NCBI RefSeq assembly: GCF_018873765.1
Contig: NC_057922.1
Span: forward strand, 12,971,563 to 13,035,562
Direction: 5' to 3'
Source: Telopea speciosissima
Lineage: Eukaryota; Streptophyta; Magnoliopsida; Proteales; Proteaceae
DNA length: 64,000 nucleotides
Under the pieces are notes generated by a model that saw nothing but the letters and a program-made list of their open reading frames with translations, had not been told where the DNA came from and did no database searches. Positions 10,601 to 45,385 of this stretch are shown piece after piece. How positions within the stretch are numbered: the stretch's first letter is position 1; each line of letters opens with the position of its first letter. The translations under genes were made by a program, and so were the position numbers.

Positions 10601-13600
10601 TTGTAAAAACACACCCAAAATGGTAGTTTGATTTTGTACACTAGGTTGGTAGTGTTCGCCGTACACAGAATTTCTTTTTGTGTGCTTTGGATGGAACAAT
10701 AAGTTCTTTTAGCTTAAGTTAAGATAGAAACTCTACAAGAACTTAAAGTGAGTCCAGTGAAATGGCCTAATTTAATCAGTTCCAATTAGGACAGAATTAA
10801 CTCGTTTGATCACTTAAAAGTAAGGTAAGAATACATTTTGAGATTAGATTGCATAATAAACCACCTATGGTTCGAAGCATTTTGTTGGACTAGGTAATAT
10901 GGTGCTCAATGAAATCTTTAAGTATGATTTGGATTAGGGGTGGCAATCTCGACATGACCTTCTAATCTGACAAATGTAATCTGTAAGAACCAAGGTTCGA
11001 GGTCTCGGTATCTCACCTGGTTTCAGTCTGCCCAAAAACCGAGTTGTCTCGGTAACTTGGCAAGATCTTGGCCGAGTTGGTGCATTTTTATGTCAAATCT
11101 TGGCCCTTGGTTTCGGTGGCCATATGACCTAATTAGGCCATGAAACTTGCAGGACAGCCTATTTTCGGCCCTATAAACATGGTGGAACCCTTAGTTTTTT
11201 TAAAAATCGCACTCAAAATGGTAGTTTGACTTAGGACCCTAGGTTGGAAGATCTCGGCCGAGTTGGTGCATTTTTATGTCAAATCTTGGCCCTTGGTTTC
11301 GGTGGCCTTATGACCTAATTAGGCCATGAAACTTGCAGGACAGCCTATTTTCGGCCCTATAAACATGGTGGAACCCTTAGTTTTTTTAAAAATCGCACTC
11401 AAAATGGTAGTTTGTCTTAGGACCCTAGGTTGGTAGTGTGTGCTGTATACCTATATATACTAATAAGACCTATTCCACACAATCTTTAGTATTAGAACAC
11501 ACATAATTCAAGTAGAACAACTTAAATAAGCAATATGAATGAAAAGACATCAAATTATGAGCCCTTTCATAAATCATAGTATCATACAGCTAACATTGTT
11601 TGTTATATAGAGTCAAATATATTTTGAGTCAACATTTAACAATACAGGCCAACAACTAACAAGTCACCCCTATCCCTATATGCTCATCCTAATATTGAAC
11701 GAGTGCCGGGTCTTCAAGTTCAAATCTCCTCCAAGGAAGGTTGTTGGGCAACAAGTCTCCTCCAAATGTTTTTCTTGAGCATCAAATCCATATGTTCCAA
11801 GTTTTTTTTTGGTAAGATTTGGAGCAAATAAGTGATTTGGAGCTGTTTTCTTCACAAACTGGTGAAACCAGTCGAGTTCACCGAGAATGGGTCGAAATTT
11901 CGACCGAGAAAAGTTGAACATGGTATTTATATAATTGACTTTGTCACATTTCGGTCAGATACTGAAATTTCGGCCTAGATTTTGGCGAGATACCAAAATT
12001 TCGGCTCACCAAAATCTCGGCCGAGAAAATGTATTCTTCTTATTTTGCACCCTATCTTGTCTCGACCAGGGTCAAAACCGAGAAAATTGCCGAGATCTCG
12101 CGAGACCTTGAACACTGGTAAGAACCTTGTCTGAATTTGTGCTTTTTGGTTCTGGTTGATTTCATGTTTATACCAAGGAATTCATTTTTGTGTTGAACCC
12201 AGCAAACCCAAAATTTATTCATATAATCCATTTATTACATTTTAATTATTTTTATTAGGATTTCTCCCTCCAGTTTTATCACTTTTGTGTTATTTCATAT
12301 GTTTCAAGTCATTTCATGTCTCGTTTCAGGTTTTGTTGTGCTTGGGGGTATCAGAACTTGGGCTGAACTATTGCCCAAACTAAAACCACCCGTTTTAATC
12401 CAAAACTAACCGACCATTTGGTTTATTGGTCTGGTTTCGGTTTTGGGCATAAGGAAAATCCAAATTTTTGTTCAGTCTCTGTCTGGCCAATTAAACCAAC
12501 AAGCCAATCAGAACCAGCCAATTATGATTGAATAGGACCGAGACTGATAGGCCCTGACTGGTTGCCTCATTATTAACCGGGTTTGAAACACTCTTCCATC
12601 TCTCCCTCTCATTTATAGACCCTTCCTTTCCTTATCTTCTTAAATTTTCAATGTGGGACTAAAAGAAAGAGGCATTCCCTTGGTCCTTTTTCCTACGTTG
12701 GAGCTAAAGGTTAGTTTTTTTAGTTCATATTAGAAACTTATGTGAGGGATTAGAGAATATGATGCTTATAATAAGGCTAGGCAGCCCCAGCCCACTTACA
12801 ATATTAGTGGTTTCGGTCTTGGGCCTGATAATTGTACAATAGACTGAGATTGATAACAACCGATAAAACCAAAACCGGTTTTGGTCTTAGGTCCTAGGAC
12901 TGTTAAGCTCATCAGTCCATTTTTTTTTTCTTGTGCCAAATGGGTGGACCCATTGGGTCAGCCCAATGGAAATTGATTGGACCGACCAATTTGACACTCC
13001 CTAGTTGTGCTTACTTGAATATGACCCAATTATTAAAATGTGTGATGGCATGTTCATTTTATGTTGTTTGAACAGAAAAAAAAGTGATCATGTTCATCTT
13101 GACAACCTTAAACTGACACTACACCCCCCCCAATCCCTGGCTAGATTGTTTTCCCTACCTTCTCTTAACACAGTTCAATGATTTTACTCAGTCTTTACTT
13201 GCACTTATTTCCCAGTTTCATATGTTCTTCCAGCTGGCTAAAAATGCTTTAACAGATCTTAATTCTTGTTCCAATCTCATGTAGGTTCGCCTTATCAAGG
13301 AGTTGTATGGAAATCAGATTAGGGACCTTTACCATACCCTTTCTTATCATATAATTGAATTTTTGCTGGATGATAATGATTGGTAAGTGCTCACTGTCTC
13401 ACTTGATTTTCATGTATCTGGTATTTCATTTAGTTTTATTAGTTTCTTATGTCTGGGATTGTACAAAGGAAAAATTTAGAATTATGATTTGCACTGGTCT
13501 TCTCATATTTAGCTCATAACTCCTAAATTCATTTCATTTCATGTTACGTAATACATATCATAGTTTATTGTGAAAGGTTTGTTCTATGTCTTCATGGCAA

Positions 13601-28632: not shown

Positions 28633-30307
28633 TCCGTTTGGTTAAGCTAAGTTTGATGAGGGCTACATTTCCTAATGAACCGGCACATTTGTAAAAAGGG
28701 CCAATTAAAGAAGGGCTTAGGGATTTTAGTGGCTTGTACATGGGCTTGTCAATAGTATTTTCGTCCATGGGTATATGGGCCTTGTTGGTAACCCATAACG
28801 GAAAACCCAAAAAAAAAAAAGTCACATCAAATTCAACTAATCTGATCTCCATCACCTAGGCAATTAAATTGAAAGTTAAGAATTTTAAAGTATTTAAGTT
28901 AGCATGATTGCGCAGCAATTTTTATGGGATATTAAAGTTCAAAAAAGGACCTGATTGGGGTGCACCCAAGGCTGGACCCACCTTTCACTAGCTTCCCCAT
29001 AAGGGTCCAAAAAAATACCTGATTGGGGTATGTGACTCGATGACTATGACTTTCCCTCTCTTCACAAAGTCCCTATTCTTTTTAGAAACACTTTCTAAAG
29101 CCCTTTTCAACTCTCCAACAGAAGACACCACATACACTGTTCTTGATCAGCACTTCAGTAGAATCATCCAGTTATGACCCTATAAAAGTTTATTCGGTTC
29201 ATCCACTATAGTCACTAAAAAAATTGAAATTTTCTATCAATTCTTTAATTTAATTAATTTTTTTTCTTCTTGAGTTACCTAATAAAGTAGTTTTCTATCT
29301 CTCTTTCTCTTCCATGGTTTTTTAAAATACATATATTAATCTTTAAGAACATGATTTAATTATTTTTTATTTCATCTTTAAAATTTAAATCTACTTCCTA
29401 AGTACATATTGAGATGATCTAACTAGAAATCAATAAAATATTAATGCTATATTATTTTTTAATACTTATATTTAATTTTAAATTATATAGGGACATCCTT
29501 ATCCTATGATACACTCGAAATTCTCTCATTATTTTAATACGAACCTAAGATAAATTAATACATACATTAAATATGTTATAAAATAGGTCAAGCCACATCA
29601 TGCACATACATCAAATACCAATGGCTATGTAGATGTTGGAATGAAAGCTAGACATTACAGAGAGTCGGGGTTAATATAGTATTAATAATTATGTAATACA
29701 TATTTAGGTCAACTTAGTATGCATTTAGGAGGTAGATTTAAAAGTGAAAATGTGTCATAAAGGGTAATCTAAATATTTTACGGACCACCAGATAAGGAGA
29801 CCTATAGGTTTTCTTCCCCATTGTTTATGCCTAGTAAAATATAATACTTCACTATTTACTATATGACTTTATACGGATTAGTCCAAATGATAAAGTATGC
29901 AAGCATCTTATTGATACAATTACAGTTTAAAATGCGTAGAGGAAGTAGTTAAAATTACAAAAGCAGATAATTTATTTTTTATATTTATCTTCAGTTGATG
30001 TCATTTTAATAATTTTACTAAAACTTCGAATCAGAGCTTGAGCAACTTCCTTGCTTATTTTGAACTACAATTTGGCCATTGAGATGAATGTAGAGTCCGG
30101 ACAAACCCACATATTACCAAATGGTAAATAGTGAAGCGTTTTTCTTCAGTAGGCATAGTGACGCTTAGAAGGACCCTAACTCATATCATATATGTATCTT
30201 TTCTTCTCTTCAGGTATTTTCTTTCATCAAAAAAAAAAGGAAAAACTGTTCTTCACCCGTTCCCACCTTGTATACAAGAAACCTGAGTATGATGTTTCCC
30301 GATATCT
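28633..30307. other. AT-rich intergenic DNA
   Basis: Very AT-rich, with many short stops in all frames. No gene, RNA or bounded repeat was recognised. Confidence 0.6.
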
Positions 30308-30317
30308 ATCTAGGATT

Positions 30318-30860
30318 AGGGGTGTCAATAAAGCCCGGCTGGCCCGAACCCGCCCTGAGCCTGGCCCGGACCTGACCCTGATTTTTCAACCCTGAGGGTG
30401 GGTTTGGGTTTAGTTATAGTCTGGCCCTAGCAGGGTCAGGTTGGGTCAGGGTTTAGATCCCAGGCTTAGCCTAGCCTGGCCCAACCCAACCCGACCCTAT
30501 ATTAATTATAAGTATATAATATTGCATATATATATATTTTTGGTCTAATATTTATTTATATATATAGCCTAATAAAAAAATTAAAAAGCAAAAGACAAAA
30601 AAAGCCCTAAAGGCACATGGGATTACAGACAAAATCAGGGTCAGGGTCAGGGTCAAGATAGGGTCCATCAGGGCCAATCCGACCCTATTAGGGTCAATCA
30701 GGGCCGGGTCGGATCAGGAAAAACCCTGGCAGGGTCGGGACTGGGTTGAGGGTTTCTTGGCCCTGGCAAGGTCGGATCGGGTCAGGATTTAGGTTAAGGC
30801 CTCTAGGGTTGGGTTAGGGTTTAGGGCAGGCCTGGCCCAACCCGACCCATTGACACCCCT
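30318..30860. mobile_element. GGGTCAGG-word element with 11-bp TIR and 10-bp target duplication
   Basis: The 543-bp unit starts AGGGGTGTCAA and ends TTGACACCCCT, a perfect inverted pair. It is flanked by ATCTAGGATT on both sides (30308-30317 and 30861-30870). The interior is degenerate words: GGCCCAACCCGACCC, GGGTCAGGGTCAGGG, CCTGGCCC, with the left half mostly in one orientation and the right half in the other. No coding frame. A 9-10 bp duplication points to a Mutator-type non-autonomous element. Confidence 0.85.
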
Positions 30861-30870
30861 ATCTAGGATT

Positions 30871-43763: not shown

Positions 43764-44074
43764 TAATAATAGATCGTTCCAGAAAACTCATTGTCACAGT
43801 CACACGAGTACTCCACCCCTCTCCCAATGCAACAAGGGAAAACCCCGGTTACAGACGTTACTCGAAGCCTCCCCCACCCTCTCCCCTCCTGTGTAATGAT
43901 TCATTCATGGGGACCCGAACCTCTTACCTGTGACTGAAGCACATACATAGGAAATATCGTACCCGTATTTATTAACTATGGTTCTTCTACGTTGTCGGAT
44001 CCTCTATTTTTTTCATGCCCTACAATTAGCTGAAAATTGGGACATCTGAGATTGTTGTTTAACAACAACTAGGG

Positions 44075-44103
44075 CTTTCTACCAAAACAAAAAAAAAAAA
44101 CAC
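44075..44103 (+). mobile_element. 29-bp poly-A stub, probable earlier or later LINE insertion
   Basis: A 29-bp piece, CTTTCTACCAAAAC followed by A-rich sequence, lies between two AACAACTAGGG copies (44064-44074, 44104-44114). Its ACCAAAA-poly-A end resembles the 3' end of the LINE next to it. It fits an extremely 5'-truncated LINE insertion at the same target. Confidence 0.5.
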
Positions 44104-44114
44104 AACAACTAGGG

Positions 44115-44732
44115 GCTGTGAGGTGAAGGGTCTGATCCTGTTGCGAAAATGTTGCCTGATACACTTGCTGATTCGGTGATGGTTTCTTTACCTCAAAGCA
44201 TTGATGGAAAGAAAGGAGATTCGCCTCACTCAGAACCCGTTGTTGGGAGGGGTGAGGTATGTATGGATGTTTCGCTTACATCAAATCGATTTGCGGCTTT
44301 GGAACCTGTGGGGAAGTCTGAGTGTGTTTTGGGAGGTGAGGCTGATGTTCCCACTCTTAGAGAACATGATAGAAGTCCGGGTCAGAGCGGCCCGTTGCGA
44401 TGCTTCACATCTCCCAAGTCCTCATGATGAAGTTCGGTGCGTGGAATATCAGGGGGATGAATGCCCCTGGTATACGACGGGCAGTCTTGGATTGGGCTTC
44501 TTGTAATCATTTGGCTTTCTTTGATTTTTTCGAGACTCGTGTGCGTTCTTGTAATTTTAATGGTTGTTATGCGATGTTCTGTAATTGTTGGAAATGTGGC
44601 CTCAGCAAGGCGAGGTCACTCCCCACGACACTCTCTTTTGTTGCAGAATGATGCTAGGGGGAAGAAATATCTAAGATTGTAATTCTACACTGGTAACTTA
44701 TAATATACAAGCTCCCTTTTAACCAAAAAAAA
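44115..44732 (+). mobile_element. 5'-truncated LINE (L1-type) insertion with poly-A and 11-bp target duplication
   Basis: The first part encodes an ORF1-like C-terminus (TSNRFAALEPVG). Next comes the start of an endonuclease domain, MMKFGAWNIRGMNAPGIRRA, then FFETRVRSCNFN (the WNIRG and ETxV motifs of L1 endonucleases). The frame breaks within about 80 codons and runs directly into a 3' end with ACCAAAAAAAAAA. AACAACTAGGG flanks it (44104-44114 and 44733-44743). Internal deletion plus target duplication shows a retrotransposed, dead copy. Confidence 0.85.
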
Positions 44733-44738
44733 AACAAC

Positions 44739-44984
44739 TAGGGTTGTAAACGGATTGGATTCGGCTCGGATGGTGCTATATCCGCATCCGCATCCAATTA
44801 GCTATCGGATGGATTTGGATAGTGCTAAATGGATACGAATTGGATATTTTATCCGTTTACATGTAAATATAGCTTTTCGGATAGCTATAGCTTATCCACA
44901 TCCGCATCCATTTAGCTTTCAAACGGATTCGGATAGTGCTAAACGGATACGGAAACGGATTTCGGCTATTCATTTACACCCCTA
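44739..44984. mobile_element. CGGATTCGGAT-word element
   Basis: Starts TAGGGTTGTAAACGG and ends CATTTACACCCCTA, imperfect inverted ends. The interior is words such as GCATCCGCATCC, GGATAGTGCTAAA and CGGATACGGAAACGG. The sequence just left of the adjacent LINE pair (ACAACAAC, 44062-44069) equals that to the right of this element (44985-44992), a possible 8-bp target duplication. Confidence 0.7.
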
Positions 44985-45049
44985 ACAACAACCCCACCTT
45001 CCCAGTTCAGTTTTTTTTTATTACGATGTGGATTTCAGGGAAACCGAAC

Positions 45050-45385
45050 CAATAAGGGTTTTTTGGTTTCGGCTTGGATTTGGTTTTGTCTTGGGTTCAA
45101 TTCGTTTTGTGCTATTGGTTTCAATTTAGTTCGATTCGGTTTGGAACCAAAATATAGGCTGGTTTTGAGTAGGGATTAAGTAGAGTTTTTAGGGTTTGGA
45201 GGTTGGTTTTAGTATTCAGTTGGTTTGGTCCTATCGATGGCCCGACAATATAGCTCGAACTGAAACCAAAACTGAATTGTGCTCTAACCCGTAAGCCAAA
45301 ACGATAAGACCTTGGTTCAGTTAGGATCAGACTCAAGTGGGTCGAGCTGGTTTTATCGTTTCGGTTTAGGTTTTGACACCCTTAC
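45050..45385. repeat. GGTTTGGTTTCGG-word repeat
   Basis: Words such as GGTTTCGGCTTGG, TTCGATTCGG and CCAAAACCG occur throughout, ending TTTTGACACCCTTA, which is like the TTGACACCCCT terminus at 30850-30860. The left end is unclear. A poly-C/poly-A run follows (45390-45420). Confidence 0.55.

Follow-up and report, generated by a model that had tools for sequence, protein, structure and literature searches.

A short, probably non-autonomous hAT transposon in Telopea speciosissima, its transposase-bearing relatives, and the word tracts behind their tips

Elements and ends in the window

We analyzed a window of 64,000 nucleotides (the whole stretch of DNA under study, C7:12971563-13035562) from Telopea speciosissima and searched the assembly to which it belongs, comprising 822.9 Mb in 1287 contigs. 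Peroxidase-domain (PF00141) exons were identified at 21.6, 25.5, and 26.6 kb of the window. The window holds 61 listed open reading frames (ORFs) of at least 90 aa; 29 ORF pieces scanned with Pfam gave 3 peroxidase matches and 1 glycine-rich match below the cut-off, and no transposase domain was identified among these 29 pieces. Rfam returned nothing at gathering score between positions 29000 and 32000. Within this interval lies the element under study, E1, which spans 30317-30861 (545 bp) and for which the first-pass annotation had reported perfect inverted ends of 11 bp. The inverted ends are present and are longer, with a perfect terminal inverted repeat (TIR) of 13 bp, TAGGGGTGTCAAT, at 30317-30329 and 30849-30861; short TIRs of this T/CA-G-rich kind are a feature of the hAT superfamily. 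E1 and its flanks are made up as follows.

30309..30316, no strand: left target-site duplication TCTAGGAT (flank comparison; length of 8 from genome copies)
30317..30329, plus strand: left TIR TAGGGGTGTCAAT, tail-type end of E1 (inverted-repeat search)
30330..30496, no strand: tail subterminal word tract, GC-rich, starting AAAGCCCGGCTGGCCCGAACC (composition and words)
30497..30631, no strand: AT-rich core of E1 without words (composition and words)
30632..30848, no strand: head subterminal word tract with CAGGGTCAGGGTCAGG and GGGTYRGG words (composition and words; alignment to locus L090)
30849..30861, minus strand: right TIR TAGGGGTGTCAAT, head-type end of E1 (inverted-repeat search)
30862..30869, no strand: right target-site duplication TCTAGGAT (flank comparison)

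The interior of E1 consists of 2 GC-rich word tracts flanking an AT-rich core, whose GC content, in 45-base steps, is 0.53-0.67 on either flank and falls to 0.09-0.40 across 30497-30631. The earlier description of a tract made only of words fails at this core, which is AT-rich and free of them. Six of the 7 window copies of GGGTCAGG fall inside the E1 tract, which makes up 0.85% of the bases, as do 14 of the 19 GGGTYRGG words, with 5 elsewhere; every other 545-bp piece of the window, scanned in steps of 45, held at most 1 GGGTYRGG. The longest stop-to-stop piece of E1 is 74 aa. As single-stranded DNA, E1 showed folding far above that of shuffled sequences (z -7.55), and 5 of the 13 G-quadruplex motifs of the window lie within it (30334-30859), on both strands.

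Further elements and ends of a related kind were identified elsewhere in the window, as listed here.

44739..44984, plus strand: E2, a shorter hAT-like element with TIR TAGGGTTGTAAA / TAGGGGTGTAAA and AAACGGAT and CGGAT words (end scan, words)
44985..44992, no strand: right target duplication ACAACAAC of E2 (matching a left copy at 44062-44069 and again at 44102-44109)
12335..12342, no strand: left target duplication GTTGTGCT of E3 (exact repeat)
12343..13003, plus strand: E3, decayed, with the same end type (TGGGGGTATCA / TAGGGAGTGTCA) and GGTTTTGG-type words (loose-end scan)
13004..13011, no strand: right target duplication GTTGTGCT of E3 (exact repeat)
45373..45384, minus strand: orphan end TAAGGGTGTCAA beside GGTTT-type words (tip search)

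Ends similar to those of E1 had been proposed at 3 other places, and 2 of these belong to elements, 44739-44984 being E2 and 12990-13003 the right end of E3. For the third, at 45370-45383, no left partner of the end at 45384 was found. When the window was scanned for loose ends, E1 and E3 were the sole hits with an 8-bp duplication, against 0.03 per shuffle, in a scan that excluded two-letter repeats such as that of E2. The first 62 bp of E2 matched L093, a transposase locus, at its 3' end with 72.6% identity (E 8e-7). We rejected a reading of E2 as an element without a clean duplication, since 2 insertions in its left end have displaced ACAACAAC: copies of ACAACAACTAGGG stand at 44062 and 44102, with a shortened one before 44739 and poly-A between them.

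These insertions, at 44075-44101 and 44115-44733, have poly-A tails, and each is flanked by (ACA)ACAACTAGGG copies. Translation of the larger gives WNIRGMN... in one frame and LLQNDARGKKYLRL-stop in another, and we take it to be like a LINE missing most of its middle; Pfam was silent on the pieces scanned from the E2 insertions. E2 also carries a 63-bp direct repeat of 86% identity (44775-44837 and 44890-44951). A candidate element of a second kind was observed at 10991-12117, with ends CAAGGTTCGAGGTCTCG / CAGTGTTCAAGGTCTCG, an 8-bp repeat GTAAGAAC, TCGGCCGA words, and, at 11057-11433, a tandem duplication of 186 bp; 5 of 60 shuffles reached the end score of this candidate, which is 10.

Target-site duplications and copies of the tip across the genome

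The tip of E1, TAGGGGTGTCAA, occurs 6558 times exactly in the genome (3217 + 3341), against 87 occurrences (43 + 44) of the reversed-letter control. We sampled the first 100 of these 6558 sites, all on C1 between 0.30 and 9.13 Mb and therefore not random, and identified 16 inward-facing pairs of 248-2062 bp. E1 itself reads TAGGGG...CCCCTA, with the first T and the last A being part of the element and not of the duplication. With flanks unfiltered, 10-15 of the 16 pairs matched at each of the 8 positions outside the T...A, 7 and 8 of 16 at the next base to either side, and 0-6 (mean 2.6) farther out; from this profile the duplication is 8 bp. An 8-bp duplication is that of the hAT superfamily, and E1 has it in 8 of 8 positions, as do 6 of the 16 pairs, with 6 more at 7 of 8 (12 of 16 at 7-8) and the others at 5, 3, 2, and 2 of 8.

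A perfect duplication of 10 bp had been claimed for E1. The direct repeats are real, with 12 flanking bases identical in all, but their duplicated part is the 8-bp TCTAGGAT, and the 2 extra bases were read because an A and a T are favored just outside the target, where they fall together with the element's own last A and first T. The target consensus, taken in both orientations from 32 elements picked for a duplication of 7-8, is nTnnnnAn flanked by A on the left and T on the right (flanking A/T 0.50; T2/A7 0.55, a single figure for both orientations). An 8-bp nTnnnnAn target is described for Hermes (PMC10368747), and the set as a whole shows this preference, with the TCTAGGAT of E1 carrying the A and lacking the T.

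A flanking repeat readable as 10 bp would also suit a Mutator-like element (MULE) with a 9-10-bp duplication and short ends, the more so as MULE duplications are given as 8-10 bp, with subterminal tandem repeats in some members (PMC5225508), and 8 bp alone is compatible with a MULE. However, the genome copies fix the duplication at 8, grapevine MULE duplications, where found, are reported as 9 nt (PMC2528002), the target consensus is nTnnnnAn, and E1-type ends enclose a transposase whose domains are BED, hAT RNase-H, and hAT dimerization. A 9-bp (8-10) duplication together with a MULE transposase was not found at the E1-type copies examined, and for these copies both the 10-bp duplication and MULE membership, which we consider highly improbable, were rejected on the 8-bp profile and the hAT transposase between the ends.

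Among the unpaired tips of the sample, 68 in number with 1 (L026) omitted for an anchor off its expected place, 22 of 67 had a decayed partner and a duplication at a score of at least 16/20, against 0.7 when duplications were dealt anew; for the other 45 of 67, no partner at this score was found within the 1.5-2.6 kb searched. Two couples of sites (L046/L048 and L047/L049) have shared flanks and look like mutual duplicates, and none of them is among the 22 partnered tips. The pairing of ends and the presence of target duplications at other loci run counter to the outcome by which the first-pass annotation would have been refuted.

A set of 36 elements, leaving out the 3 pairs at 3, 2, and 2 of 8 as well as E2 and E3, fell into 17 groups (blastn, 100 aligned bases, single linkage), the largest having 10 members, including E1, and 9 members. 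In the comparison of ends (n = 35, L078 being too short), the sign of C minus G over the first 24 inner bases was opposite at the 2 ends in 30 of 35, so that a head can be told from a tail in most elements. The 2 ends of an element had 14.0 6-mers in common in direct orientation, compared with 6.95 when partners were exchanged (sd 0.91, maximum of 1000 shuffles 10.3), and sharing was weaker in inverted orientation (8.6); with 1 element per cluster, the figures were 9.6 and 5.4 (sd 0.87, maximum 7.7 of 300). Each word set is thus a property of its element, common to the 2 ends.

The 25-mer of the E1 head, TAGGGGTGTCAATGGGTCGGGTTGG, has 467 exact copies in the genome and the pattern of its tail, TAGGGGTGTCAAKAAAGCCCG, has 257, with controls at 0 for both. 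With its 545 bp, its lack of coding, and these 467 heads and 257 tails of the same type, E1 fits the MITE class, an assignment made with L010 as the sole end-to-end relative of E1 seen in the sample. This nearest relative is 87% identical to E1 end to end and has its own duplication, CTTTCATC. We weighed whether E1 might be some unrelated tract of GC-rich repeats whose ends match by coincidence, since simple words readily yield inverted matches and 32 inverted pairs lie inside the tract. Against a chance origin stand the head and tail copies with their empty controls, and the end-to-end relative with a duplication of its own. Further, when the window was scanned for hAT-like ends beside an 8-bp repeat, E1 scored 19/19 and the best of 20 shuffles 16, and an end-blind scan gave E1 a TIR score of 13, which none of 60 shuffles equaled, the largest score among them being 12. 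Chance was ruled out by the shuffles, the tip counts, and the head and tail copies, and we assign it a negligible probability.

Two E1-type elements of the sample, of 1.7 and 2.1 kb (L013 and L022), have a common interior with similar frames (SDIPNWSKLALQFSS...), perhaps captured host sequence, and reading frames are also present in a mid-sized relative (L024).

Transposase-bearing relatives and their words

A genome search with the hAT dimerization domain (PF05699) scored at least 150 matches among 1799 candidates. Over the stretch compared (C1, and C2 to 72.46 Mb, as covered by the first 100 of the 467 heads), 6 of the 29 PF05699 matches listed had an E1-type head 0.86-1.06 kb downstream and pointing inward, with 0.05 expected within 3 kb; tail positions were those of the first 100 of 257 only. 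The first-pass annotation had suggested looking for an autonomous partner with the same ends, and a transposase-bearing one was found in L088, the one of these 6 that was read whole, an element of 5478 bp with both tips at 12/12, a duplication ACTATCAC at 8/8, and zf-BED (4.8e-9), hAT-like_RNase-H (2.6e-28), and Dimer_Tnp_hAT (3.7e-31) domains spread over split frames. L090, which was read at its head end only (tip 12/12), carries all 3 domains in one open frame of 731 aa. L088 therefore combines the BED, RNase-H-fold, and dimerization domains of a hAT transposase with the ends of E1, and L090 does so for the head. E1 could be aligned with L088 at both ends and with L090 at the head; its head tract is 75% identical to the 3' end of L090 over 259 columns. 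The best solved-structure match of L090 was the transposase of Hermes type, from the house fly (E 3.1e-12, in the C-terminal stretch 584-683 only).

We read 18 PF05699 loci at least at the 3' flank, a nonrandom choice in which 1 locus was taken for its E1-type head, 8 on C1/C2 for having no listed head nearby, and the rest mainly for long frames. The 3 vocabularies, defined after the sequences were seen, and the diverged BED-type finger accompanying each are as follows.

Lineage A (L090): words GGGTCAGG; finger CKYCHKEFGCASEHGTSSLKRHLDRC
Lineage B (L106): words CCGAAACC; finger CNRCRQIYKADSTTNGTGTLRRHILHC
E2 type (L093): words ATTCGGAT; finger CKHCKRIFNGSSSMGTTHLHSHTKTC

A recognized vocabulary was present in 11 of the 18 loci, and the lineage agreed with the word set in 11 of 11, 3 of these agreements being the reference lineages themselves; in all 11, the dimerization domain was nearest to the reference of the same vocabulary. 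Seven loci had 9-15 GGGTYRGG and no CCGAAACC-type words, 2 had 27 and 11 CCGAAACC-type words with 0 GGGTYRGG, and 2 had 14 and 11 CGGAT with 0 GGGTYRGG. Stray words were limited to 1 CGGAT in each of 3 other loci and 2 CCGAAACC-type words in L100. Exact 12/12 tips were identified in lineage A (L088, L090, L102, and L103) and lineage B (L095 and L101), and weaker ones in L100 (10/12), L093 of the E2 type (9/12), and L089 (a decayed 8/12 end at 151), while L094 and L098 were typed as lineage A by words alone, having no tip of 9/12 or better. In the remaining 7 loci (L091, L092, L096, L097, L099, L104, and L105), no recognized tip or vocabulary was found in the ~1.0-1.5 kb of 3' flank; by identity in the dimerization domain, L096 (71%) and L097 (81%) compare with the reference of lineage B, L092 (70%) with that of the E2 type, and L104 (71%) with that of lineage A, and L104 has 5 GGGTYRGG with no end seen.

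Lineages A and B have an identical 12-bp tip and transposases 39% identical over 470 columns; between lineage A and the E2 type, transposase identity is 38% across 641 columns. The fingers of lineage B and the E2 type differ from the A finger; the BED match of lineage B lies under the Pfam cut-off (18.4 vs 20.6 bits), and the finger of L093 was identified by pattern and by alignment to the A finger, Pfam not having called it. The first-pass observation that one terminal type frames several vocabularies stands, with different words behind identical 12-bp ends, and its meaning has changed: one tip type precedes several vocabularies because several hAT lineages, each having a transposase and words of its own, share the tip.

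End recognition and comparison with known hAT systems

The hAT superfamily, its MITE-like members, tips common to unlike interiors, and subterminal repeats are already known. Within the open-access literature, a scope that leaves repeat databases such as Repbase outside, we found no account of a genome in which several lineages combine one identical tip with matched words and BED fingers, and no such transposon was among the titles listed for the tip sequence.

Very probably, E1 belongs to the hAT transposons as a short, MITE-like, non-autonomous member that a larger relative's transposase moved, with words that most likely act as docking sites for BED fingers, each lineage having its own words and its own finger. 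E1 would have been inserted at TCTAGGAT by cut-and-paste, the transposase coming from a relative of large size that has both of the same ends, probably one of the L088/L090 type. The 12-13-bp tips, common to several hAT lineages of this genome, would be the cleavage ends, and the GGGTCAGG/GGGTYRGG words found over the outermost ~200 bp at both ends are subterminal repeats and most likely docking sites for the BED finger of L088/L090-type transposases. With own words and an own finger in each lineage, a single tip type would come to stand before several vocabularies. These roles are assigned by analogy with Hermes, in which BED domains are reported to bind subterminal repeats and other parts of the transposase to hold the tip (PMC10368747), and with maize Ac, whose transposase is reported to bind subterminal AAACGG repeats (PMC3260210). 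On this analogy, the BED finger of lineage A probably binds the words of E1, the tip would be the cutting site, and the words may decide which transposase moves which element. Counting against this account are the 7 loci in which neither a recognized tip nor a vocabulary was seen, the 4 of 16 pairs with poor duplications, and the weaker sharing of words in inverted orientation.

The words might instead have no role in recognition, being GC-rich tracts spread by slippage or copying within the ends and marking descent only. Their direct orientation at both ends and the tandem CCCTGA runs present in L088 suit this alternative, and common descent alone would also give the matching of words to lineages. 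The repetition of words in E1 is likewise just modestly above that of its own GC-rich parts when shuffled, the counts of its commonest 6-, 7-, and 8-mers being matched in 64, 45, and 15 of 300 shuffles. However, in the 5.5 kb of L088, none of the 20 GGGTYRGG words is more than 350 bp away from an end, and L089 keeps the A words with a transposase only 62% identical to that of L090 and a finger segment nearly unchanged (24 of 26 residues of the A finger). The binding of subterminal repeats by the Hermes BED domains (PMC10368747) and of AAACGG by the Ac transposase (PMC3260210), as these sources describe it, points the same way, and we regard words marking descent only as unlikely.

The words might also only tune efficiency, with any transposase that recognizes TAGGGGTGTCAA able to move E1. 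The exact 12-bp tip common to lineages A and B is consistent with such cross-mobilization, as is the report that some Ds1 elements without the hexamers still move with Ac (PMC3260210). The head and tail words, however, travel together within elements, as expected if one transposase has to read both, which is an indirect argument; we consider cross-mobilization rather unlikely. A modular system, in which a nearly constant tip serves as the common cut site and rapidly diverging subterminal words have changed in step with the BED-type finger of each transposase to give several mutually insulated systems, with at least 3 lineages, is a realistic possibility that we put forward tentatively.

A hAT transposase has to pick out the ends of its own elements from thousands of similar ones. 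Should words and BED fingers diverge in step under a fixed tip, one genome would yield many matched pairs from which rules of BED-DNA recognition could be read, and the words and fingers of the lineages would form a natural code table. This would also explain why differing short word tracts recur behind one tip. For annotators, an odd GC-rich word tract becomes a recognizable element, ordinary as a kind but part of a good natural collection for testing how a hAT transposase locates its ends.

Among known systems, Hermes resembles the Telopea elements in its 8-bp nTnnnnAn targets and in having the transposase that, among solved structures, best matches the E1-type one (C-terminal stretch). Unlike Hermes, which is one element with one repeat set, several lineages here have one tip with differing words and fingers. 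Maize Ac/Ds is described with C/TAGGGATGAAA tips in Ac, 8-bp duplications, and transposase-binding short repeats in the outer ~200 bp, and its non-autonomous members Ds1 and Ds-l4 with tips in common and little else (PMC3260210). E1 is like Ac/Ds in its short tips, 8-bp duplication, and subterminal repeats and in having a tip common to unlike interiors, and E2 in its AAACGG hexamers (5 of the 13 in the window). E1 is set apart from Ac/Ds by its ends and words, with the tip TAGGGGTGTCAA, GGGTYRGG words, and no AAACGG; E2, despite its 5 hexamers, has TAGGGTTGTAAA/TAGGGGTGTAAA tips, and neither element has the combination of Ac/Ds proper.

Rice Dart/nDart1, with nDart1 counted among the actively moving MITEs (PMC12595863), is given in a single table row with an 8-bp duplication, tgctagta, and with a 19-bp tip, gcccatttggccacctcta (PMC2956540). 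As far as these entries go, the likeness lies in the 8-bp duplication and in a tip start, TAGAGGTGGCC, close to TAGGGGTGTC, and the difference from E1 in a longer tip; on the subterminal sequence of nDart1, nothing relevant was found in the open-access literature. BniHAT-1 and BniHAT-2 of Brassica nigra are reported as elements of 673 and 666 bp with tips of 25 and 12 bp, an 8-bp duplication, and an AT content of 70% and 75% (PMC7385995). E1, at 545 bp, is likewise a short element and has the short tips and 8-bp duplication in common with them and, unlike these AT-rich elements, has a GC content of 0.59 in the outer 150 bp of each end.
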